From Candidatus Schekmanbacteria bacterium (GTDB taxonomy: Bacteria > CSSED10-310 > JACPHN01), in assembly GCA_016188575.1 (NCBI GenBank), contig JACPHN010000146.1, positions 1-46,268 on the forward strand: DNA of 46,268 nt, in the 5' to 3' direction. Below are positions 24,056 through 46,224 of this stretch, piece by piece (the first letter of the stretch is position 1; every line of letters starts with the position of its first letter). The translations under genes were made by a program, and so were the position numbers. The notes beneath the pieces were generated by a model. It worked only from the letters and a program-made list of their open reading frames with translations. It searched no databases and was not told where the DNA came from.

Positions 24056-24763
24056 TTACTGCGGCAGCACAATCTCCGTACGGCGATTCTGTGCGCGCCC
24101 CTCCTCCGATTCATTGCTCGCGAGCGGGTAGTCGGCGCCAAAACCCTGAGTCTTGACATGCTCCTGCGGGACCTTGCCGGCCACGAGGTAATCGGCCACG
24201 GCGCGCGCGCGATCGAGCGACAGGGCCAGGTTCTTCTGGGGATCTCCGGAGCTATCGGTGTGGCCGCAGACGTAGATGTCGATCCCCGGAAAGTACGAGC
24301 TCAGCATCTGGACCTGTCGGTCCAGAGAAGAGGTGAACTCGGGCTTGATCTCGTGCTTGCCGACGGCGAACGTGGTTTGCGCGCCGTAGTCGAACACGAG
24401 GACGCGGGGCAGGCCAAGGGCCTTGGCGATCGCCGATGCTCCCGCGCCAAACACGAAGGTGACCTCGGCGGTGTCCGCGCTCGTGAAGCGGATGCGCGTC
24501 TCCACGGGGGCCTCCTCGCCCTGTCGCGCGGACAGGCGGACAACCTCCTGGAGTGACTGCATGCCTACCGTTTGCGGCGTCTGACCGACGACCTTGCCGT
24601 TAAACACGACGTCGGCCGGGCCGGGGCTTGCCGCGACCATGGCGTGGGTGGGCAAGACTTTGGGCGCACAGGCGAGGGTGGTCAAGGCGGCCCCGATCGC
24701 GGCGACACCCAGAGTCAGTCGGCGGGCGGCCTGGCAACGGGAGAAAGCGCAGAAGTGCGTCAT
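24056..24763 (-). CDS. OmpA-like peptidoglycan-binding lipoprotein
   Basis: 235 residues. The ATG at 24763 overlaps the kinase stop (ATGA), so the two are coupled. The lipobox LTTLAC is at about residues 27-32. Residues 50-110 hold a PEGA-like segment (DVVFNGKVVGQTPQTV). The C-terminal 120 residues are an OmpA domain: YVCGHTDSSGD, LSLDRARAVADYL and NRRTEIVL, with the Asp and Arg that hold diaminopimelate. It should anchor the outer membrane to peptidoglycan. Its tie to a kinase with a periplasmic domain suggests that the pair monitors the cell wall. Confidence 0.85.
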   Translation of the reverse strand: MTHFCAFSRCQAARRLTLGVAAIGAALTTLACAPKVLPTHAMVAASPGPADVVFNGKVVGQTPQTVGMQSLQEVVRLSARQGEEAPVETRIRFTSADTAEVTFVFGAGASAIAKALGLPRVLVFDYGAQTTFAVGKHEIKPEFTSSLDRQVQMLSSYFPGIDIYVCGHTDSSGDPQKNLALSLDRARAVADYLVAGKVPQEHVKTQGFGADYPLASNESEEGRAQNRRTEIVLPQ

Positions 24764-26514
24764 GGTGATGCTCCGGCAGGAAAGTCGATTCCGATTGCGA
24801 CCGTCACGGCCACGGGCTGTCCTTCGGCATCCCGCGCCGGCGAGAACTTGTAGCGCGAACACGCGGCCACTGCCAGAGGGCCGCAGGCAGAATTGCCGGC
24901 CTGCAACACCTTGCAGCCGCTGGTCGCGCCAGTCACGTCAACGCGGGCGACCACGCCGACGCGGGTGCCGGCGCACGCCGCGACGAGGTCGGGGGGAATG
25001 TCGGGCAGGGGTGCGGTGATCGGCACAGGAGTGGTGACCGGGCGGGCCGCTGGCCGCGGCGCCACCCTGGCGGCGGCCGTGGGTTGCGGTGCCGGCTTGA
25101 TCGCAGTCGCTCTCGGCGACGGGGCCGGGCGCGTGGCCGTAGGTTCGGGCGGCGTGGTGGTCGGGATCGCGGTTGTGGTAGGTGACGGTGACGGTGACGG
25201 TGCCGGGGCCGCGGGTAGCGCCGTCTCGGCGGATGCCAGAGCAGGTCGCGGGCCGGTGGGCGCCGTTGTCGCGACAGCGGCCGCCGGAGGTTGCTCTGTC
25301 GCCACGATCCAGACAGCGGCGGTCGTCGCCGCGATGACCATGGCCCCGAGGCTCGCGGCGACCACGATCGCCGCGCGGTTGGTGCTCCGGGAGGCAGATC
25401 CCGCGACGAGAGGCAGGGGGGGCGGCAAGACCAGCGGAGCCTCTGGCGTCCGGGCAACCAGAGTGTCGGGAGGCGCCGTCTCCGCGGTGGACAGCGCTGC
25501 CGGGGTTGCGGTCGCGGTGAACCCCACAGGCTGCTGTTGCGCACGCGTAACCTTGCTGGCGGTTGCCAGCGCCGCGGAGAATTCGGGCAGAGGCTGCCAG
25601 CGGGTCCGCGACAGGCCGCGGGACTCGAGGTATGCGGCGAAACCGTCGCGCATCGCCAGGGCCGATTCATGGCGCTGTTCGGGCGCGCGCGCCAGCGAGC
25701 GCATGACCAGATCTGCCAGCTCGGGCTCGAGATCGGGGCGCATCTCCTCGATTCTCGGTGCCGGCTCCACCAGGCGCTTCATGACCATTTCGAGGACCGA
25801 TTGCGACTGGAACGGGCGCGCTCCTGTCAGCGCCTCGAACAGCGTCACTCCCAGCGCGTACAGATCCGCTCGCCCATCGATCGCGCCGCCGATCGCCTGC
25901 TCCGGAGCCACGTACGCCGGTGTTCCCATCATGAAACCGGTCTGTGTTTTCACCGTGCTTTCCGTGGACCTGGCGACGCCGAAGTCCGCCAAATGCGGCC
26001 GCCCCGAAGGATCGAGGATGACGTTGGCGGGCTTGATGTCGCGGTGGATCACGCCGCGATCGTGGCTGTACTGCAGCGCCCCGAGAATGGGGATCGCCAA
26101 CTGGCAGACCGTCAGCGGGTCGAGCCGCCCGGCGACGCGGAGCACCCCGCCCAGAGTCGGCCCCTCGATGAGCTGCATGACGTACCAAAGCAACCCGGCG
26201 TCGCGTCCAAAGTCGTAGATCTTGACGATGTTGGGGTGATCGAGCGCCGCCGCAATCGTCGCCTCGCGCTCGAAGCGTTCCGCGGAATCCGGCTCGTGAT
26301 CGCTCGTCAGGATCTTGAGCGCCTCGTCACGGTGCAGGCGCACGTTGCGCACGCGAAAGACCGCGCCGCCCCCGCCCTTGCCGAGCAGTGCCAGGAACGT
26401 GTAGCGCTGCCCGAGGTGACGCTGGAGCTCCGCCGCCTGGTGCGCATAGGCCTCGTGCGGCAGGGACACTTGCCGCGGCATGGGTCCCGTCGGCAGACCG
26501 GTGCTCTCATCCAT
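24760..26514 (-). CDS. Transmembrane Ser/Thr protein kinase with TonB-C-like periplasmic domain
   Basis: 584 residues. Kinase at about 38-300: LLGKGGGGAVFRVRN (Gly loop, 44-58), EALKIL (ATP lysine), HRDIKPANVILD (157-168), ADFGVAR (176-182) and APEQAIGG, all canonical. A Pro-rich stretch leads to one membrane span (about 381-404), then a Pro/Thr-rich periplasmic linker (405-500). The last 75 residues (VVARVDVTGATSGCKVLQAG, then CSRYKFSPARDAEGQPVAV) resemble the TonB C-terminal fold. Eukaryotic-like kinases often end in PASTA or beta-propeller sensors, so a TonB-C-like end is unusual. No clear ribosome site precedes ATG 26514. The OmpA-like gene overlaps its stop. Confidence 0.88.
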   Translation of the reverse strand: MDESTGLPTGPMPRQVSLPHEAYAHQAAELQRHLGQRYTFLALLGKGGGGAVFRVRNVRLHRDEALKILTSDHEPDSAERFEREATIAAALDHPNIVKIYDFGRDAGLLWYVMQLIEGPTLGGVLRVAGRLDPLTVCQLAIPILGALQYSHDRGVIHRDIKPANVILDPSGRPHLADFGVARSTESTVKTQTGFMMGTPAYVAPEQAIGGAIDGRADLYALGVTLFEALTGARPFQSQSVLEMVMKRLVEPAPRIEEMRPDLEPELADLVMRSLARAPEQRHESALAMRDGFAAYLESRGLSRTRWQPLPEFSAALATASKVTRAQQQPVGFTATATPAALSTAETAPPDTLVARTPEAPLVLPPPLPLVAGSASRSTNRAAIVVAASLGAMVIAATTAAVWIVATEQPPAAAVATTAPTGPRPALASAETALPAAPAPSPSPSPTTTAIPTTTPPEPTATRPAPSPRATAIKPAPQPTAAARVAPRPAARPVTTPVPITAPLPDIPPDLVAACAGTRVGVVARVDVTGATSGCKVLQAGNSACGPLAVAACSRYKFSPARDAEGQPVAVTVAIGIDFPAGASP

Positions 26515-30661: not shown

Positions 30662-33600
30662 ATGGGCGACAAATATATAGATAGATTCCGCATCCAGTCG
30701 CTTCTGGGCCGGGGAAGCATGGGTGTGGTCTACCTTGTCGTCGACGAGCAATCGGGGCGGCCGTTCGCCCTCAAGCAGATCACGCGCGTCGACGAGTCGC
30801 AACTGCTGCGCTTCAAGCGGGAATTCCGCGCGATGCAGCGGCTCGACCACCCCAATCTTGTGCGCGTTTTCGACTACGGCCAGACTGAGGATCTCCCGTA
30901 TTTCACCATGGAGTACGTGGACGGATTCGGTCTTGCCGACTATGTCCAGCACGGATCTGCAGGACCGCCGGCGGGAGGGGCGCTGGATGGCATCAGATCG
31001 CCCGCTGCGGCGCCGGAACCGCCGACTGTGCGCCAGATCGGCCGCCTCGTTCATGCGATCGCGCACGTGTGCCGCCCGCTCGCCTACATTCATGCACGCC
31101 GGGTCCTGCATCGCGACCTCAAACCCTCGAACATCATGATCCTGCGCGCCGAGCACGCCGGGCTGGAAGATCGCGTCAAGCTGATGGACTTCAGCCTCGC
31201 CAAAGAACAGGCGGGCGGCCCGAGCATCGACCCCGAGATCACCGTCGCCGGTTCGCTCATCGGCACACCCGCTTACATTTCTCCGGAGCAGGCGCTCGGC
31301 GAGGCCGTAGATGCGCGCAGCGATCTGTACGCGCTGGGCGTCGTGCTGTTCGAGCTCGCCGCCGGCCGGCGCCCATTCGATGCGACCTCGGCCTTTCTCA
31401 CCGTGCTCAAGCATCTCAACGAGCAACCGGTCTCGGCGCGGATCCTCAACCCCGCAATTCCCCCGGCGCTTGCCGAGATCATTGAGCTCTTGCTGCGCAA
31501 GGATCCATCCGAGCGAGTTCAAAGCGCCGCGGAGCTCGAGTCACGGCTGCTCAGGATCACCGGCCTGGTCGATACCGAAGAGGCGGCGCCGGCGCCTCCG
31601 GTCCTGGTTCGTGGGCGGCCGATCCCTTCCTGGGACGCCGAAACGACTCCAAATATCCCATGGAGCGTGATCCGCGAGGCCATGGCGACGGGTGGCCAGG
31701 AGCACGCGGATGCGTTGGTCGACAGCGGCGCTGGCCAGCGGCAGGCGCCCGCGCTCTATTCGCCGCGCTTCGTGGGCCGGGAGCGCGAGCAGACGGTGCT
31801 GGCCGCCAGGGTCGCGGAGCTTCGTGGCGGCGTGGGCAGCTTCGTGGTTGTCAGTGGTGAGGCCGGCGTGGGCAAGACGCGCCTGGCACGCGAGCTCCGT
31901 CGCGACCTGCGGCTCGGCAAGATTCCCGCCTTCGCCGCCGCGTGCACGGAAGCGGCGAGCACCCCACTCGGGGTTTTCGGCGGTATCGTCGAACAGGTCG
32001 TGGAATCGTGCCTGGCAGTGGCGGATGGCGCGATTCCGGCGGAAATCGTGTCGCCGCTGCTCGTGCTCGGCCAACACTGCCCCGAAATCCGCCGCTTGCC
32101 ACCGCTGCGGGCGCAGCCGACTCCGGAGCCGCTGCCTCCAGGCCAGGCCAAGTTCCGCGTTCTCGACGCCCTTCACCGCGTCCTGGCGTGGGCAAGCAAC
32201 CGCTCGCCGCTCGCGTTGCTCATCGACAACCTCCAGTGGATCGACCAGCTCAGCCTCGAGGCGCTCGAATACTTCGTGCGGCGCGGCATTCACCGCCCGC
32301 CAGACCAGGCGGCCGCCGACGACCCGCCCCTGGCCGTCATGATCGTGGCGTGCGTGCGCAGCGAGGAGATTGCCGAGGTCGAGGCCCTTTCGAAAAGCCT
32401 GCAGCGCCTCGTCGGCGAAGGCGTCGCCGTGCCCCTGCCTCTTGAACGGTTGGAGGTCAGCAGCATCAGAGCGCTGCTCGCTTCCATGCTCGGCATGGCA
32501 GACCCGCCCGCCGATTTCGTGCGGCGGGTACACGCGGAAACGGACGGGAACCCCTTCTTTGTCGAGGAAATCGTCAAGGAGCTCGTGGCAGAGCGCATCG
32601 TGGTGCCGAATACCGGAGGCGGGAGCTGGGGCATCGGGCCCGCGGAAGCTGGTGCCTCACCGTTGACCGCCAGCGACTTCGACCGCATCCGCATTCCGGT
32701 CACGATCCGGGAGGCCTTGCAGCGCCGCCTGTCCCGCCTTTCTCCCGAGCTGCTCGAGGTCCTGACGGTTGCAGCAGTCATTGGCAGCGAGTTTTCGTTC
32801 GACGTGCTGTCCGCCTGCACCCGCTGGGACGAGGATCCCCTGCTCGACGCGGTGGACGAGCTTCTGCGGCGGGCCATTCTCGCCGAGGTGGTGGGCACCT
32901 CCGAGCGCTACCGGTTTCATCACGAAAAGGTCCGCGAGGTGCTGTATCGGGATTGCCCTCAGCGCCGGCGCACTCGCCTGCATCGTCGCGTCGCCGAGGC
33001 GCTGGAGGCGCGTGGCGACGCCGCCGGAGAGCAGCGGCCCAACGAGCTCGCGCGGCATTACCTGATGGGGAAAAACCGGCCCAAGGCGATCCACTATGCG
33101 TTGACGGCAGCGCGGGTTGACGCGGCAATGTTCGCCAACGAGCAGGCGCTGGAGCAGTACGCAAACGCCTTGTCGCTGCTGCAAAAGCCCGAGGGCAGCG
33201 ACGAGGAGGCGCAGAGGATCCGCGTCTTGCTCGAACGGGGCGACGTCCTGAAGTTGATCGGCAGCTATGCGGAGGCGCGCGACGCCTTTGCGGAGGCGCT
33301 CGACGGCGCACGGTGCGGGCTGCTTCCGGCGGAAACGGCCGCGGCCATGCTCGGGCTGTGCGAATCCTACTGGCGCCAAGGAGCGCATCGCGTCGCTCTG
33401 GAATTTGGCAAGGAAGCGCTGGAGCAGGCGCGGCAGGACAACAATCCGCGCGCTATCGCAGCCGCGCTCACTGCGATCTTTCCCATTCATTTCTACCTGG
33501 GCCAGATCGACGACGCGCGGAGCGTCATGCAGGAAGCGATCGCCATGGATCCTGCGCCGGGGAACCCCGCCGAGCGCGCCGATCGCGTCGGCAGACTGGC

Positions 33601-34528
33601 GACGCTGGCCCACCGTCTGGCCGAATACGATCGCGCCCGCGAGTACTATCTGCAGTCCATACGGCTCGCCAAACAGAGCAACAACAAGGTGCGCATCGCG
33701 GCGAACCTGTCGAATCTTTCCGCGCTATATTTCGACCTCGGACGGTACGGCCGCGCGCTGAAGCATTGCCGGCGCGGGCTCGAGCTCGATCGAGAAATCG
33801 GCAACCGCCCCGGGCTCGCACTCGGGTACGCCCATCTCGGGGCGATCTACGCGACCATCGGCATGTATGACAAGGGCGCCAAGACACTCGTGCGCTCGGT
33901 CCGCATCAGTGACGAAACCGGTGAGCGCGTCTTTCTTCCGTATGCGCTGGTGATGCTGGCGCGCGTGTGGCGGGCGCTGGGAGAAGCGGACGGGGCCCGG
34001 GAGGCGCTGATGCGCGCATATCGGCTCAGCGGTGAGTCCGGAAACCCCGAGGACGGGCTACACGCCGGGCTCGAGGTCGTGCGCGTGATGGCGCAACAGG
34101 GTCGGCTCGACGCCGCCCGCAAGAAGGCCGAGGAGCTCAAGAATACGGCGGCGACATTGAGCAATCCGCTGCTGCACGCCGCGGCCATCCACCTGTGCGC
34201 GCGCCTGGACGGTCTGCTGAAACGACCGGAACAGGCGCTGAACGCGGCCCGCATCGCCGCGGACATGCGCGTAAAGCACCAGTTGGGGGAGGCGTGGAGC
34301 TCGTATGTGGTCGCCGCCGAGTCGCTGCAGGCGCTTGGCCAGCTCGACGAAGCGAAGGCCGCCGCGGCGCGGGCGCTGAGTCTACTTGGAGAGTGCATTG
34401 GCGAGCTTCCCGCCAATCTCCAGGAAGTCGCCGCCAATCGCCGCGGCGTGCAGCGACTCGGTTCCCTGTACCAGGAGCTGACGGGCGCGGAGATCGATCT
34501 GCAGCACCTGCTGCGCGAACGCCGCTAG
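30662..34528 (+). CDS. Ser/Thr kinase - NTPase - TPR signalling protein (intact)
   Basis: 1288 residues. Kinase at 8-300: LLGRGSMGVVYLV, FALKQI, HRDLKPSN (150-157); the metal-binding motif reads DFS (176-178) instead of DFG. A STAND/AAA-like NTPase begins at about 370 (RFVGREREQTVLAARV) with Walker A GEAGVGKT at 399-406, Walker B LALLIDNLQWID near 515-526 and GNPFFVEEI near 630. A winged-helix-like segment is followed by about ten TPRs (830-1270). This architecture is widespread in Myxococcota-like bacteria and acts as a cytoplasmic kinase scaffold with protein-binding repeats. It is the intact counterpart of the broken locus at 14928-18382. No strong ribosome site precedes ATG 30662. No dedicated regulator gene is beside it. 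Confidence 0.9.
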   Translation: MGDKYIDRFRIQSLLGRGSMGVVYLVVDEQSGRPFALKQITRVDESQLLRFKREFRAMQRLDHPNLVRVFDYGQTEDLPYFTMEYVDGFGLADYVQHGSAGPPAGGALDGIRSPAAAPEPPTVRQIGRLVHAIAHVCRPLAYIHARRVLHRDLKPSNIMILRAEHAGLEDRVKLMDFSLAKEQAGGPSIDPEITVAGSLIGTPAYISPEQALGEAVDARSDLYALGVVLFELAAGRRPFDATSAFLTVLKHLNEQPVSARILNPAIPPALAEIIELLLRKDPSERVQSAAELESRLLRITGLVDTEEAAPAPPVLVRGRPIPSWDAETTPNIPWSVIREAMATGGQEHADALVDSGAGQRQAPALYSPRFVGREREQTVLAARVAELRGGVGSFVVVSGEAGVGKTRLARELRRDLRLGKIPAFAAACTEAASTPLGVFGGIVEQVVESCLAVADGAIPAEIVSPLLVLGQHCPEIRRLPPLRAQPTPEPLPPGQAKFRVLDALHRVLAWASNRSPLALLIDNLQWIDQLSLEALEYFVRRGIHRPPDQAAADDPPLAVMIVACVRSEEIAEVEALSKSLQRLVGEGVAVPLPLERLEVSSIRALLASMLGMADPPADFVRRVHAETDGNPFFVEEIVKELVAERIVVPNTGGGSWGIGPAEAGASPLTASDFDRIRIPVTIREALQRRLSRLSPELLEVLTVAAVIGSEFSFDVLSACTRWDEDPLLDAVDELLRRAILAEVVGTSERYRFHHEKVREVLYRDCPQRRRTRLHRRVAEALEARGDAAGEQRPNELARHYLMGKNRPKAIHYALTAARVDAAMFANEQALEQYANALSLLQKPEGSDEEAQRIRVLLERGDVLKLIGSYAEARDAFAEALDGARCGLLPAETAAAMLGLCESYWRQGAHRVALEFGKEALEQARQDNNPRAIAAALTAIFPIHFYLGQIDDARSVMQEAIAMDPAPGNPAERADRVGRLATLAHRLAEYDRAREYYLQSIRLAKQSNNKVRIAANLSNLSALYFDLGRYGRALKHCRRGLELDREIGNRPGLALGYAHLGAIYATIGMYDKGAKTLVRSVRISDETGERVFLPYALVMLARVWRALGEADGAREALMRAYRLSGESGNPEDGLHAGLEVVRVMAQQGRLDAARKKAEELKNTAATLSNPLLHAAAIHLCARLDGLLKRPEQALNAARIAADMRVKHQLGEAWSSYVVAAESLQALGQLDEAKAAAARALSLLGECIGELPANLQEVAANRRGVQRLGSLYQELTGAEIDLQHLLRERR

Positions 34529-41487: not shown

Positions 41488-42285
41488 GTGGCCGCCGCGG
41501 CGGAACCGTTGCTGCCGATTTCCGCCGTCATCATCACCAAGAACGAGGCGGACCGCATCGGTAGATGTCTGGCGTCGCTGAGGTTCGCCGCGGAGGTCAT
41601 CGTCGTGGACTCGGGCTCGACCGACGGCACGGTCGAGCTGGCCACGTCACTGGGTGCGCGCGTCGTTCATCACGACTGGCTCGGCTACGGCCCCCAAAAG
41701 AACTACGCGATTTCACTGGCCACCCAGCCCTGGACACTCAGCATCGACGCCGATGAAGAGGTCACGCCGGCTTTGGCGCAGGCGTTGCGCCAGCGGCTCG
41801 GAGAGGAGGTGCCGCCACGCGTCGCGGGATTTCGGATGCGCCGCCAGCTCGTGTTCGCCGGACGCCGGCTGCGGTTTGGGCGCTCCGTCAACTACCCGGT
41901 CCGCCTCTTTCGCACGCATTGTGGCACGTTTGACGCTGTTACCATCCACGAGAGCTTGCGCGTCGACGGAGACGTGGCGTCGCTGCGCGGTACGCTGCTG
42001 CACCACAGTTATCGGAGCCTGAGTGACTACCTCACCACGCTGAACTCGTTCACGTCCCTGACCGCCCAGGACAAGGCCGCGCGCGGCTGTCGGGTCCCGC
42101 GCGGCTACGCGCTGCGGCTGCCGTGGGAGATCTTTCATCGCTACTTCCTGCGGCTCGGCGTCCTCGACGGCCGGCCTGGCCTGCAGTGGTGCCTGCTCAG
42201 CGCCTTCTACGTTTACGTTAAGTACGCGAAGCTCGACGAGCTGCTGAGTCGGCCACGCCAGGCCGATGCGCCCCAGCGCCGCTAG
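41488..42285 (+). CDS. Family 2 glycosyltransferase (WaaE/KdtX-like)
   Basis: 265 residues from GTG 41488, three bases after the pspA stop. A GT-A fold: ISAVIITKNEADRIGRCLAS, then VVDSGSTDGTVELA (nucleotide-sugar binding) and LSIDADEEVTP (D-x-D metal site). The region YPVRLFRTHCG and the later HHSYRSLSDYL are typical of the WaaE/KdtX lipopolysaccharide core glucosyltransferase group. It probably adds a sugar to envelope glycolipid. Translational linkage to pspA suggests joint response to envelope stress. Confidence 0.85.
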   Translation: MAAAAEPLLPISAVIITKNEADRIGRCLASLRFAAEVIVVDSGSTDGTVELATSLGARVVHHDWLGYGPQKNYAISLATQPWTLSIDADEEVTPALAQALRQRLGEEVPPRVAGFRMRRQLVFAGRRLRFGRSVNYPVRLFRTHCGTFDAVTIHESLRVDGDVASLRGTLLHHSYRSLSDYLTTLNSFTSLTAQDKAARGCRVPRGYALRLPWEIFHRYFLRLGVLDGRPGLQWCLLSAFYVYVKYAKLDELLSRPRQADAPQRR

Positions 42286-42360: not shown

Positions 42361-43362
42361 GTGATCAATCGGGTGGCTATCGTGGGTGCTCCGGGAGCGG
42401 TCGGGCGGGAGCTGCTCGATCTCTTCGCAGAGGGAAGACTGCCTGCCGTCGAGGTCAAGGCATACGCATCGCATGCCGAGCACGGAACGCTGCTGGCCCA
42501 CGACGACGAGCCATTGGTGGTGCTTGATCTGGAGAAGGAGGTCGATCCCTTTGCGGGGATAGACGTTGCGTTTTTCTTCGGCGACGCCGAGGCGGCGCGG
42601 CGGCACGTCGCTGAAGCGCTCCGTACCGGGGCCGTGGTCATCGATGGCACCGGAGCCCACGTGCGCGAGACGCACGTGCAGCTCACCATCGCCGGTGTGA
42701 ACTGGCGGCGGGCCACCGACGCCTGGCCGCTCTACCTGGTTCCCAGCTCGCTTGCGACCATCGCCGGCACCGTGTTGCTGCCTTTGCACCAGGCGTTTGG
42801 CCTGCGGCGGGTCGCGATGTCGTCGTATCAGTCGGTGTCCAGCCTGGGGCGGCCGGCGATGGACGACCTCTTCGAGCAGAGCGTGTCCATTGCCCGCGGC
42901 CAAGAACCGATTCCCGTGATGTTTGAGCACCAGATAGCGTATAACCTGATTCCCTGGATCGGGGCGATTCTTTCCGATGGGGAAAGCACGGAGGAGAAAG
43001 AAGTAGGCTATCAGCTTACGCGCCTCCTGGAGGTCCCGGCATTGGATGTTTCGATGGCCTGTGTGCGCGTTCCCGTGTTCATCGGCGAGGCGGCGACCGT
43101 GACGGTGGAGACGGAGCGGCCGGTCGACTTGCGCACCGCACACGAGACGCTCGATCAGGTCTCCATTATCACGGTCGTTCGCGATTGCACCAAGGACCGC
43201 CTCGACCCGCTGCGCGCCGGGCTGGAAGAAAACGTCCTGGTCGGCCGGGTGAGAGTGGACGCCGCGGTGGGGAATCGACTGCACTTTTTCGTCGTGGCCG
43301 ACAATCTCAGGCGCGGCTCCGCGCTCAACGCCATCGAGATCGCGTCGAGGCACTTCGCATGA
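42361..43362 (+). CDS. Aspartate-semialdehyde-dehydrogenase-like protein lacking catalytic residues
   Basis: 333 residues from GTG 42361 (GGAGG about 10 bases upstream). The whole Asd fold is present: VAIVGAPGAVGRELLDLF (NADP site), SYQSVSSLG, NLIPWIGAILSDGES and CVRVPVFIGEAATVTVE. The active-site NPNCST is VPSSLAT at 127-133, without cysteine, and the catalytic His of RVPVFRGH is Glu (243). It therefore cannot be a normal dehydrogenase. Non-catalytic Asd paralogs such as the Usg group are known. Its stop overlaps the nadB ATG (ATGA), suggesting that its product works with aspartate oxidase. Confidence 0.82.
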   Translation: MINRVAIVGAPGAVGRELLDLFAEGRLPAVEVKAYASHAEHGTLLAHDDEPLVVLDLEKEVDPFAGIDVAFFFGDAEAARRHVAEALRTGAVVIDGTGAHVRETHVQLTIAGVNWRRATDAWPLYLVPSSLATIAGTVLLPLHQAFGLRRVAMSSYQSVSSLGRPAMDDLFEQSVSIARGQEPIPVMFEHQIAYNLIPWIGAILSDGESTEEKEVGYQLTRLLEVPALDVSMACVRVPVFIGEAATVTVETERPVDLRTAHETLDQVSIITVVRDCTKDRLDPLRAGLEENVLVGRVRVDAAVGNRLHFFVVADNLRRGSALNAIEIASRHFA

Positions 43363-44990
43363 ACGCGCCTATCGCAGAAGCGGATCGGACCGAGGTCGTC
43401 GTCATCGGCAGTGGGGCTGCCGGGCTCCTGTACGCCATCGAGCTCGCGCGGCGAAGCTCCGGGACCGATACGATTCGCCTCGTCACCAAGGGCTCCATCG
43501 ACGAATCGAATACGCGCTACGCGCAGGGCGGAATTGCCGCGGTGTTCACGCTGTATGACGCGTATTCGCACCACATCCAGGACACCATGACGGCAGGTGC
43601 TGGCCTCTGCGACGTCGATGCGGTACAGGTGCTGGTGCGCGAGGCCCCGGCGCGCATCCGCGACCTCGATCGCCTCGGCGTTCATTTCAACAGAGACGAG
43701 GAAGATCGCTACCGGTTTACGCGAGAGGGCGGGCACGAGCAGCATCGCATCCTCTACGTCGGCGACATGACCGGCAAGGCGATCGAGAGTGCTCTGGTCC
43801 AGAGCATCTACGACAATCCGGCGGTGCGGGTGGATATCGACAGCTTCGCCATCGATCTAATCGTGTCCGAGGGACGGTGTCACGGCGTCTGGGTGCTCGA
43901 CCGCTCGCGGACGCTCAGGCCGATTCTCGCCAAGGTGGTGGTCCTGGCAACGGGCGGTGCCGGACAGCTCTTCAGCCGCACCACCAACCCCGCCGTGGCC
44001 ACGGGAGACGGCGTGGCCATGGCGGACCGCGCTGGTGTCGGGCCGCGCCATATCGAGTTTGTGCAGTTTCACCCCACGGCTTTTCATCGGACTGGCGCCC
44101 CGTCGTTTCTGCTCTCCGAGACGATCCGCGGAGAGGGAGGAATCCTGCGGACGCTTGCTGGTGAACCGTTCATGAAGCGTCACCATCCGATGGCCGATCT
44201 GGCGCCGCGCGACATCGTCTCCCGAGCGATCTACGCGGAGCTGACCAGCACCGGGACCGACCACGTGCTGCTGGACATCAGCCACAAGCCGGCCGACTTT
44301 ATCCGCACGCGCTTTCCGTCATTGTCCCAGCGGTGCCTGGAGCACGGCATCGACCTGGCCCGCGAGCCCGTCCCGGTATCTCCCGCGGCGCACTACATGT
44401 GCGGCGGCGTGCCGACCGACATCGATGGATGCACCTCGCTGCAAGGTCTCTACGCGATCGGGGAAACGGCGTGCACGGGAGTACATGGGGCGAATCGCCT
44501 CGCTTCCAACTCGCTGCTCGAATCTGTCGTGTTTGCGTACCGTGCGGCCGTGCACTCGGACTGGTATGTGCGCAGCCTGGGGCGGTCCTTCGACAGCGCC
44601 CAGCGCAGTCTGCTTTCTGATGGTCTGGCCCCGCCCTGCGGGGACGCGGCGCTGCCCGAGGCAGTCGGCGGAGAGCTTGCGGCGCTGCGGGTCGCGATCG
44701 GCGATTGCTTGTGGCGTGGCGCGGGCGTGGTGCGGTCCGACGAGGGACTGGCGCGGGCGGCGGCCGAGGTGACCGCGATTGCACGGCGCGTGGAGGAGAT
44801 CTACGCGCACCACTGCCCTTCCCCTGCACTGTGCGAGGTCCGCAACCTCGCACGTGTCGCCGAGCTTGTGGTCGCCGCCGCTCGTCATCGGCGGCAGAAC
44901 GTGGGGAGTCACTTCAGCACCAGTCTCGAGCCGGGGAGAGGGGAGGCGAGCAGCGCTCGCCTGCGGTTCCTGGACGAGCTGTGCGGTTGA
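43359..44990 (+). CDS. nadB: L-aspartate oxidase
   Basis: 543 residues from ATG 43359, which overlaps the previous stop by four bases; the longer open frame upstream is the other gene. FAD-binding VVVIGSGAAGLLYAIELARR at the N-terminus, then SNTRYAQGGIAAV, FVQFHPTAFHR, SETIRGEGGILR and ETACTGVHGANRLASNSLLE, all hallmarks of NadB, which oxidises aspartate to iminoaspartate for NAD synthesis. The helical C-terminal domain is complete. nadA and nadC are not in the window. A GC-rich stem-loop (GCGCGGC 44995-45001, GCCGCGC 45010-45016) follows without a T-run. Confidence 0.96.
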   Translation: MNAPIAEADRTEVVVIGSGAAGLLYAIELARRSSGTDTIRLVTKGSIDESNTRYAQGGIAAVFTLYDAYSHHIQDTMTAGAGLCDVDAVQVLVREAPARIRDLDRLGVHFNRDEEDRYRFTREGGHEQHRILYVGDMTGKAIESALVQSIYDNPAVRVDIDSFAIDLIVSEGRCHGVWVLDRSRTLRPILAKVVVLATGGAGQLFSRTTNPAVATGDGVAMADRAGVGPRHIEFVQFHPTAFHRTGAPSFLLSETIRGEGGILRTLAGEPFMKRHHPMADLAPRDIVSRAIYAELTSTGTDHVLLDISHKPADFIRTRFPSLSQRCLEHGIDLAREPVPVSPAAHYMCGGVPTDIDGCTSLQGLYAIGETACTGVHGANRLASNSLLESVVFAYRAAVHSDWYVRSLGRSFDSAQRSLLSDGLAPPCGDAALPEAVGGELAALRVAIGDCLWRGAGVVRSDEGLARAAAEVTAIARRVEEIYAHHCPSPALCEVRNLARVAELVVAAARHRRQNVGSHFSTSLEPGRGEASSARLRFLDELCG

Positions 44991-44994
44991 GCTC

Positions 44995-45016
44995 GCGCGG
45001 CAGCGGAGCGCCGCGC
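44995..45016 (+). terminator. Stem-loop after nadB
   Basis: GCGCGGC and GCCGCGC pair around an 8-base loop, four bases past the nadB stop. Without a T-run it may only protect the mRNA end or pause transcription. Confidence 0.3.
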
Positions 45017-45222
45017 CCGGCGCGCTGACGTGCGCATGGACGTGCGCTGGACGCCTCGCTCTCCCGGCCAACCAACCGCTTCGTGATCGTCTGCGTTCGC
45101 CCCAAAGCGCCGACTCCCCTTGGCCCGATCCCTGCAAGTCTCTCGCGTGGAGCGCGAGCCAGCCTGCTGCCGTGCTCGCGCGGCCAGGGCCGATCCAAAA
45201 TCATCATCAGGGGAAGACAAAC

Positions 45223-46224
45223 ATGATCCGCAAGGCGTGGGGATTGCTTTTTTGCTGCGCTCTGTGCGCGCCGTCGAACGCGCTGGCCGAAAGAGCCACA
45301 TACGCGGTGTTGACCTATAACGTCGCCGGACTCGTCGCACCAGCTCCCATGATCTTCGAGTACTCGGCGGAAGAGCGAGCTGGATTGATCGCAGACAGAA
45401 TTCTCGCCGCCCAATACGACATCGTCGTCATCGCTGAAGCGTTCGACGACGCCGTGCAGGACACGCTGGTCGCGCGACTCTCGCCCTCGTTTCCGCACTT
45501 CGTGAAAATGCTCGACGACGGCGGGTACGACGGTGACAGCGGATTGATGCTGTTCTCCAAGTTTCCGCCGCGGCCGCTGAGCCGCGGAGCTTCGCCCTCA
45601 GACTGGTACTGCGCCTACGACCCATCGACGGTAGGTGTTGAGCCCGCTGTCCCTTCCGGTAGCGTGGTCACCTCGCCCTCATTCTGGACGGCTGCCTTTG
45701 CCGACTACGCGGGCTGCAGTGCCGCGTACCGGCCATTCTCTTCGCTGACGGACGGCGACGTCTGGGCGGCCAAAGGAGTGGGCTGGGTCAGAGTCTTCAA
45801 CACCGTCAGCATGCGACCGCTCAACGTGTTTTTCACGCACCCCCAGGCCTCCTACGCAGATTGCGTGTACGAATGCGCCGTGGCTCGAGCCGAGGGCTTT
45901 GCGGAAATCCGCGCGATGATCCGCACCTTCGCCCCGCTCGCCGAGGGCGAAGAGGCGGTGCTGGCCGGTGACCTCAACGTCGTCGGCGACCTTGACGCCG
46001 CGGGCAGCCGCGACGTGGAGTACGAGCGCGAAATCACCTCGGCGGTTGGCTCCGCAAGCCTCCGAGCGCTCGGTTTTCGGGATCCGTGGCGCGCAGACGG
46101 GACGCCGTCTCCCGCCTACAGGGATGATCCCCTTCAACGCTGGCGAAAAACGACCGGGGTGTGCCGGCGAAAAGTAGGCCAGACGGGGCGTGGCAGTTGG
46201 GTGGGTATGGCCGGGAGCAAGTAG
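45223..46224 (+). CDS. Secreted endonuclease/exonuclease/phosphatase-fold protein, C-terminus probably lost
   Basis: 333 residues from ATG 45223 (AGGGGAAG upstream); signal peptide at 1-23. The EEP fold is clear: AVLTYNVAGL, DIVVIAEAFDDAVQD (catalytic Glu), SGLMLFSKFP, VNVFFTHPQA-like LNVFFTHPQASY and AVLAGDLNVVGD (catalytic D-x-N). The closing RLDYVF/SDHxP strands with the final catalytic His are missing; after about residue 305 the sequence (RWRKTTGVCRRKVGQTGRGS) looks unrelated. Secreted sphingomyelinase-like or nuclease activity would be expected of an intact copy. The change coincides with repeated AAGTAGGCC motifs at 46172 and 46219, possibly the end of an insertion sequence. Confidence 0.72.
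   Translation: MIRKAWGLLFCCALCAPSNALAERATYAVLTYNVAGLVAPAPMIFEYSAEERAGLIADRILAAQYDIVVIAEAFDDAVQDTLVARLSPSFPHFVKMLDDGGYDGDSGLMLFSKFPPRPLSRGASPSDWYCAYDPSTVGVEPAVPSGSVVTSPSFWTAAFADYAGCSAAYRPFSSLTDGDVWAAKGVGWVRVFNTVSMRPLNVFFTHPQASYADCVYECAVARAEGFAEIRAMIRTFAPLAEGEEAVLAGDLNVVGDLDAAGSRDVEYEREITSAVGSASLRALGFRDPWRADGTPSPAYRDDPLQRWRKTTGVCRRKVGQTGRGSWVGMAGSK

Follow-up and report, generated by a model that had tools for sequence, protein, structure and literature searches.

An Asd-family pseudoenzyme encoded directly upstream of nadB in a Candidatus Schekmanbacteria genome

Why should a bacterium carry, joined to the gene for L-aspartate oxidase (nadB), an Asd-family gene whose product appears to have lost its active site? 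The question arises in a 46,268-base contig (G000:C275), analysed here at its whole length and referred to as the window, from a 9.2 Mb Candidatus Schekmanbacteria genome of 275 contigs (completeness 93.76%, contamination 3.68%). The features discussed below are listed in Table 1. A GAGG sequence lies upstream of nadB and ends 8 nt before its ATG codon. The glycosyltransferase gene that precedes the pair lies on the same strand as the pseudoenzyme gene.

Table 1. Coordinates of features in the window and at the loci compared with it
Feature	Coordinates	Strand	Basis or remark
Asd-family pseudoenzyme (asd_B class), 333 aa, GTG start	42361..43362	+	profiles, alignment, model
VPSSLA motif of the pseudoenzyme	42739-42756		
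ATGA, pseudoenzyme stop and nadB start, 4-nt overlap	43359..43362	+	sequence
nadB, L-aspartate oxidase, 543 aa, ATG start	43359..44990	+	TIGR00551 506.9 bits, cut-off 452.75; FAD_binding_2
Family 2 glycosyltransferase, 75 nt upstream of the pseudoenzyme	41488..42285	+	PF00535 5.2e-20
Protein kinase domain gene	24760-26514	-	
Protein kinase domain gene, also AAA_16 and TPR repeats	30662-34528	+	
ORF behind nadB	44779-46224	+	later part resembles secreted endonuclease/exonuclease/phosphatase proteins, by eye only
E. coli Usg	L101:3137-4150		PRK14874 291.9 bits, cut-off 223
Conserved dead-Asd/nadA-nadB cluster	L081:4071-13473, also L080, L082, L083		four phylum genomes

The pseudoenzyme is matched by two Pfam families (Semialdhyde_dh, 9.5e-14; Semialdhyde_dhC, 2.9e-36) and passes the broad NCBIfam model PRK14874 (249.1 bits, cut-off 223), and it fails the asd_B equivalog TIGR01296 (233.6 bits, cut-off 324.2). 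PRK14874 is passed by E. coli Usg too, so that annotation by this model can label a dead copy a working Asd.

Residues were compared in an alignment of 64 rows, made up of the window protein, six same-phylum proteins, five proteins first picked as Usg or Usg-like, 48 Asd matches from the genome search (50 were fetched and two that duplicated phylum rows were removed) and four proteins from genome_contigs. Ten rows are without an intact active site: the window protein, four phylum copies, three Usg rows (E. coli, Proteus and P. aeruginosa), and L047 and L030, the two dead copies among the 48 sampled genome-search rows. The remaining 54 rows form the canonical set, which is partly defined by the active site, includes some near-duplicates and consists mostly of best matches to the window protein. 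Aeromonas L103 and Legionella L104, both first picked as Usg, were rejected as such because they are intact canonical Asd (46/46 sites), and they are counted as canonical. The 46 near-invariant sites referred to throughout were defined on 52 rows, with the dead L047 and L030 still among them.

The sequence-only reading held that the active-site Cys of the window protein had become Ser and the His had become Glu, and both replacements are real. The nucleophile column is Cys and the acid-base column His in 54/54 canonical rows, and the window protein has Ser at position 130 and Glu at position 243. The loss is wider than had been claimed: both phosphate binders, invariant in 54/54 rows, are gone (Arg101 to Val, Lys214 to Glu), as is the equally invariant pocket Asn129 (now Ser), and 16 of the 46 near-invariant sites are lost and 30 kept. 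Gln157, Asn195, Glu211 and Arg236, again invariant in all canonical rows, are all retained. The nucleotide site had been described as kept, which is correct for the GxxGxxG motif but not for position 40 (Ser in 53/54 canonical rows), which we take to contact NADP in Asd and which is Glu here. A sequencing slip as the source of these changes is ruled out by the stop-free reading frame, by its ordinary GC content by codon position (0.71/0.43/0.79, like the neighbouring genes) and by the change of five pocket residues.

The equivalent residues of H. influenzae Asd, assigned by motif and spacing, are Arg103, Asn135, Cys136, a Gln, an Asn, Glu243, Lys246, Arg270 and His277. According to a review (PMC3276109), the kcat of single mutants of that enzyme falls to <0.01% of wild type in C136S, 1.0% in H277N, 0.07% in R103L and 3.3% in K246R, and Glu243 holds the amino group and Arg270 the carboxyl group of the substrate. 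With four mutant-sensitive residues lost together, normal Asd activity is very unlikely, and on its residues the window protein has near certainly lost it. The pair that binds the amino and carboxyl groups is kept, as Glu211 and Arg236 by the positions matched here. Among the ten dead rows Arg at position 236 is found in the window protein alone; it is replaced by Gln in the five rows that lie outside the phylum and by Trp in the four copies within it.

The Asd fold, which had also been claimed to persist, is retained in the predicted structure. The best AlphaFold model, made from a six-row alignment, has a mean pLDDT of 82.4 and a pTM of 0.81 (the other four models have mean pLDDT of 61.0 to 77.2), with values below 50 at residues 160-162, 190-199 and 283-285. 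Its best PDB match is V. cholerae Asd II (2qz9; Z 38.9 over 322 residues), and the P. aeruginosa Usg homologue (2hjs) matches with Z 36.8. The pseudoenzyme thus has a full-length predicted fold in common with canonical Asd of the asd_B/PRK14874 type (2qz9; S. pneumoniae 2gyy), but differs from it in the nucleophile, the acid-base residue, both phosphate binders and the pocket Asn.

Another Asd is present in the same genome. There are three PF01118 matches: the window gene, a C227 protein that reads by eye as ArgC, and a C251 protein that scores 505.5 bits with asd_gamma (cut-off 402.9) and contains the catalytic Cys and His in GGNCT and RCHSQ motifs. Tetranucleotide usage in a 10.9-kb stretch of C251 correlates at 0.986 with that of the window, where pieces of the window give 0.979-0.990 against the rest of it, so contamination is not indicated.

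The pairing with nadB is not unique to this genome, as it would have to be for the first refuting condition of the sequence-only reading to apply. Eight genomes of the phylum (G000-G007) were examined, nadB is matched at 1e-120 in seven of them (the exception, G005, is 60% complete), and each of these seven has an Asd-family gene on the same strand at most 3.4 kb upstream of nadB. The two genes are directly adjacent in G000 and G002 and separated by one small gene in G001, and three genes (~3.4 kb) stand between them in G003, G004, G006 and G007; the linked copy of G006 is detected by BLAST (3.0e-9) and was missed by the Pfam search. Outside the phylum no adjacency of Asd and nadB was found in the 59 genomes with both genes listed in a 386-genome search, and the two never lie within 140 kb of each other, three of these genomes having both on one contig. 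These counts were made among the 150 Asd and 150 nadB places listed, one place per genome, with the nadB places of G000 and G002 added from a separate search. Within the genomes sampled, only the phylum shows the pairing, and no description of this arrangement was found among the papers listed on an asd-nadB link, channelling or dead Asd.

The linked Asd is intact in G001 (44/46 sites) and G002 (46/46), with the catalytic and pocket residues complete, and in each of these genomes it is the one PF02774 match. That of G002 also overlaps nadB by 4 nt, if its ORF-finder TTG start is right. The linked copy is dead in the other five of the seven genomes, four of which have a second Asd. G003, G004 and G006 contain a further Asd that carries the motifs NPNC(S/A)T and DGH, and scans of those from G003 and G006 assign them to the asd_EA class; a Pfam search of G007 (69% complete) found the dead copy and no second Asd. 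That the other Asd is of the gamma class in G000 and asd_EA in G003 and G006 hints at separate replacements. The proposed link to nadB is supported, the ATGA overlap being present and the pairing recurring across the phylum. As a hint of a role with NadB it fares less well: the overlap is real, but overlap and pairing also occur with intact Asd (G002 and G001), and the overlap alone is thus no evidence for a partner of NadB or for a role in aspartate oxidation.

The dead copies of G003, G004, G006 and G007 retain 12-18 of the 46 sites, with no catalytic Cys or His and with the Rossmann glycines lost. They resemble the window protein in belonging to the Asd family, in their position upstream of nadB on the same strand and in the absence of both catalytic residues, but they are much more degenerate and lie three genes from nadB where the window gene overlaps it. 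As they have neither the Rossmann glycines nor an equivalent of Arg236, a ligand role read from the window protein would not be common to them. They are under purifying selection, weaker than that on their neighbours. In four of the six possible genome pairs pN is 0.37-0.47 and pS 0.73-0.81, and by pN the dead copy changes faster than nadA, nadB and a 700-aa gene in every computed pair; synonymous change has reached saturation in three pairs, and the fourth has dS 2.77 and dN 0.74.

These four copies belong to a conserved cluster with the order binding-protein gene (535-541 aa), two transporter-like genes, dead Asd, small lipoprotein-like gene, 700-aa gene, nadA and nadB. Scanning the G004 cluster, with one of the two transporter-like genes included, identified SBP family 5, a permease and NadA, together with weak T2SSG similarity, below cut-off. 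The 700-aa protein, present in these four of the eight phylum genomes, has a cyclase catalytic domain in the one genome scanned (G004; PF00211, 25.4 bits, cut-off 21.9), which puts a cyclase-domain protein alongside NAD synthesis genes. Behind the intact Asd of G001 lies a small gene whose homologues occupy the matching place, behind the dead copy, in G003, G004, G006 and G007 (BLAST 1.6e-16 to 1.7e-22, five sequences). This homology supports, by position, the descent of the dead copies from an intact nadB-linked Asd.

The closest known parallel of the window protein is Usg. In E. coli Usg (b2319) the Cys is replaced by Ser and the His is kept, and usg shares one base with truA; in the P. aeruginosa homologue the His is replaced by Asp, and the gene lies between asd and fimV in a plasmid record. 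Like the window protein, Usg has an asd_B fold without the full catalytic set in a genome with a gamma-type Asd, as in E. coli and in the P. aeruginosa record, where the adjacent gene is named asd, and it is a dead Asd whose gene touches an unrelated downstream gene. The two differ in that Usg adjoins truA or fimV and the window gene nadB, in the Gln of the three Usg rows at position 236 against the Arg of the window protein, and in His243, kept by E. coli Usg and not by the window protein. E. coli Usg passes both Usg models, whereas the window protein scores below their cut-offs (160.2 of 273 for PRK08040, 166.4 of 284 for PRK05671); neither model score nor neighbourhood places it in the Usg family. 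No molecular function for the Usg protein was found among the papers listed on it. In a Salmonella study (PMC6358828), deletion of usg lowered macrophage survival and growth under oxidative conditions, and a plasmid with truA gave pdxB, usg and truA deletion strains wild-type-like growth, oxidative conditions included, so that for Usg as well a role of the protein separate from that of its downstream gene is putative.

Dead Asd were also seen in two genomes outside the phylum, with the Cys replaced by Ser in L047 (G242:C30) and by Val in L030 (G035:C57). We note that a Cys-Ser pair has become Ser-Leu in several dead Asd (window VPSSLA, E. coli VPDSLT, L047 APDSLT). Since dead copies occur away from nadB in L047, L030 and Usg, loss of catalysis does not need nadB. 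The frame beside the dead copy of L030 resembles TsaB by eye and is presumably a tRNA-modification gene, as is truA beside Usg.

Among the matches listed from the 386 genomes none is closely related to the window protein, the best identity being 41%. Searches of genome_contigs for close relatives gave six loci at 31-35% identity (with Haloplasmataceae, Bacillota, Clostridia and Sulfurimonas titles), tblastn matches in plasmids are all below 60% identity (best listed, 36%), no relatives were found in viral_contigs, and a DNA search of E. coli genomes gave no match. The end branch of the window protein is the second longest of the 64 rows. In the full tree the window protein groups with the dead copies of the phylum (97/83, with a long-branch warning) and Usg with gamma Asd (93/93). 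The window protein has nine rare substitutions in common with the four dead copies; dead rows from elsewhere share 6 to 15 with them (Proteus 6, L047 7, E. coli 8, P. aeruginosa 14, L030 15), and the 97/83 grouping may thus reflect long-branch attraction.

Trees constrained in several ways were compared. Holding the window protein with G001 and G002 gives p-AU 0.833 and a log-likelihood gain of 23.5, and the tree that joins it to two Usg rows is likewise not rejected, with p-AU 0.647 and a log-likelihood that exceeds the free search by 8.4. With G001 alone p-AU is 0.682 and with G002 alone 0.407, on a tree from which 21 of the 64 rows were left out (17 long or redundant, and the four dead copies). 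An rpoB tree, built from the 17 of 22 genomes with a match and with fragmented matches left out, shows a trichotomy of G000, G001 and the four dead-copy genomes; G002 is without an rpoB match. A tree of nadA and nadB has a branch setting G000 and G002 against the rest with a support of 52, or 68 with nadB alone. Catalysis may have been lost once or twice in the phylum.

We lean towards the explanation that the window gene encodes a former Asd whose place was taken by another and which persists, without catalysis, as a protein made in step with NadB. An Asd would have stood upstream of nadB in an ancestor within the phylum, the gamma-type enzyme of C251 would have taken over the pathway step in the G000 lineage, and the nadB-linked copy would have been left without nucleophile, acid-base residue or phosphate binders; we infer this order of replacement and loss. 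An origin as a nadB-linked Asd of the G001 and G002 type is quite probable from gene position. The protein would have been kept alongside NadB, probably still Asd-folded and possibly able to hold an aspartate-like ligand, and its retention for a protein function is reasonably likely. Against this scenario stand the long branch of the window protein and the dead copy of G007, for which a second Asd was not found in a genome 69% complete, as well as the dead Asd away from nadB and the sister copies' loss of the Rossmann glycines and of an equivalent of Arg236. That the pseudoenzyme acts on NadB is a guess, and a doubtful one, and the suggestion that it channels iminoaspartate, drawn from gene order, gains no support.

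The long branch would suit a relic, a dying Asd gene kept only for carrying transcription and translation into nadB and with an idle product, as would the loss of 16/46 near-invariant sites, the 4-nt overlap and the other Asd in the genome. We consider this rather unlikely given the intact 333-aa reading frame with ordinary codon-position GC, the retention of Gln157, Glu211 and Arg236 in the pocket, and the purifying selection on sister dead copies that are three genes away from nadB. Orthology of the window protein with Usg, the gene being perhaps gained together with the gamma-type Asd, would account for the combination of that enzyme with a dead asd_B copy, as in the P. aeruginosa plasmid record, and for the VP-x-S-L motif of E. 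coli Usg, and the constrained tree with two Usg rows (p-AU 0.647, 8.4 log units above the free search) is not rejected. It is nonetheless improbable: the Usg model scores are below even those of the intact G002 and G001 Asd, position 236 is Gln in the three Usg rows, L047 and L030 and Arg in the window protein, the neighbour is nadB as elsewhere in the phylum and not truA or fimV, grouping with G001 and G002 gains more (23.5 log units, p-AU 0.833), and in the full tree Usg falls with gamma Asd (93/93) and the window protein with the dead copies of the phylum (97/83, with its long-branch warning). Least probable of all is that the protein still catalyses some other reaction, on a different substrate and by way of the Ser or other residues. 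In favour of this are the retained GxxGxxG motif and amino-acid half of the pocket, but the nucleophile, the acid-base residue and the two phosphate binders have all gone, and C136S alone leaves <0.01% in H. influenzae Asd (PMC3276109).

If the window protein is a former Asd kept as a non-catalytic protein, then it probably has a second job. With the residues of chemistry and phosphate binding lost and the holders of the amino and carboxyl groups kept, it could sense an aspartate-like ligand, and one specific though quite unlikely version is that a non-catalytic Asd fold senses aspartate or the imino product and sets the activity of L-aspartate oxidase. Were this true, then, with the remodelled copies in the nadA-nadB clusters of the four sister genomes counted in, this phylum would have made an Asd, perhaps repeatedly, into an accessory protein for the synthesis of NAD. 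Upstream of nadB the genomes of this phylum form a natural series: an intact Asd in two of them, a copy whose pocket is half kept in the window, and copies that are fully remodelled in the rest. Wherever the second Asd was typed, it belongs to a different class (gamma in G000, asd_EA in G003 and G006). The series is a good case for asking why dead enzymes persist, and it bears on Usg as well.
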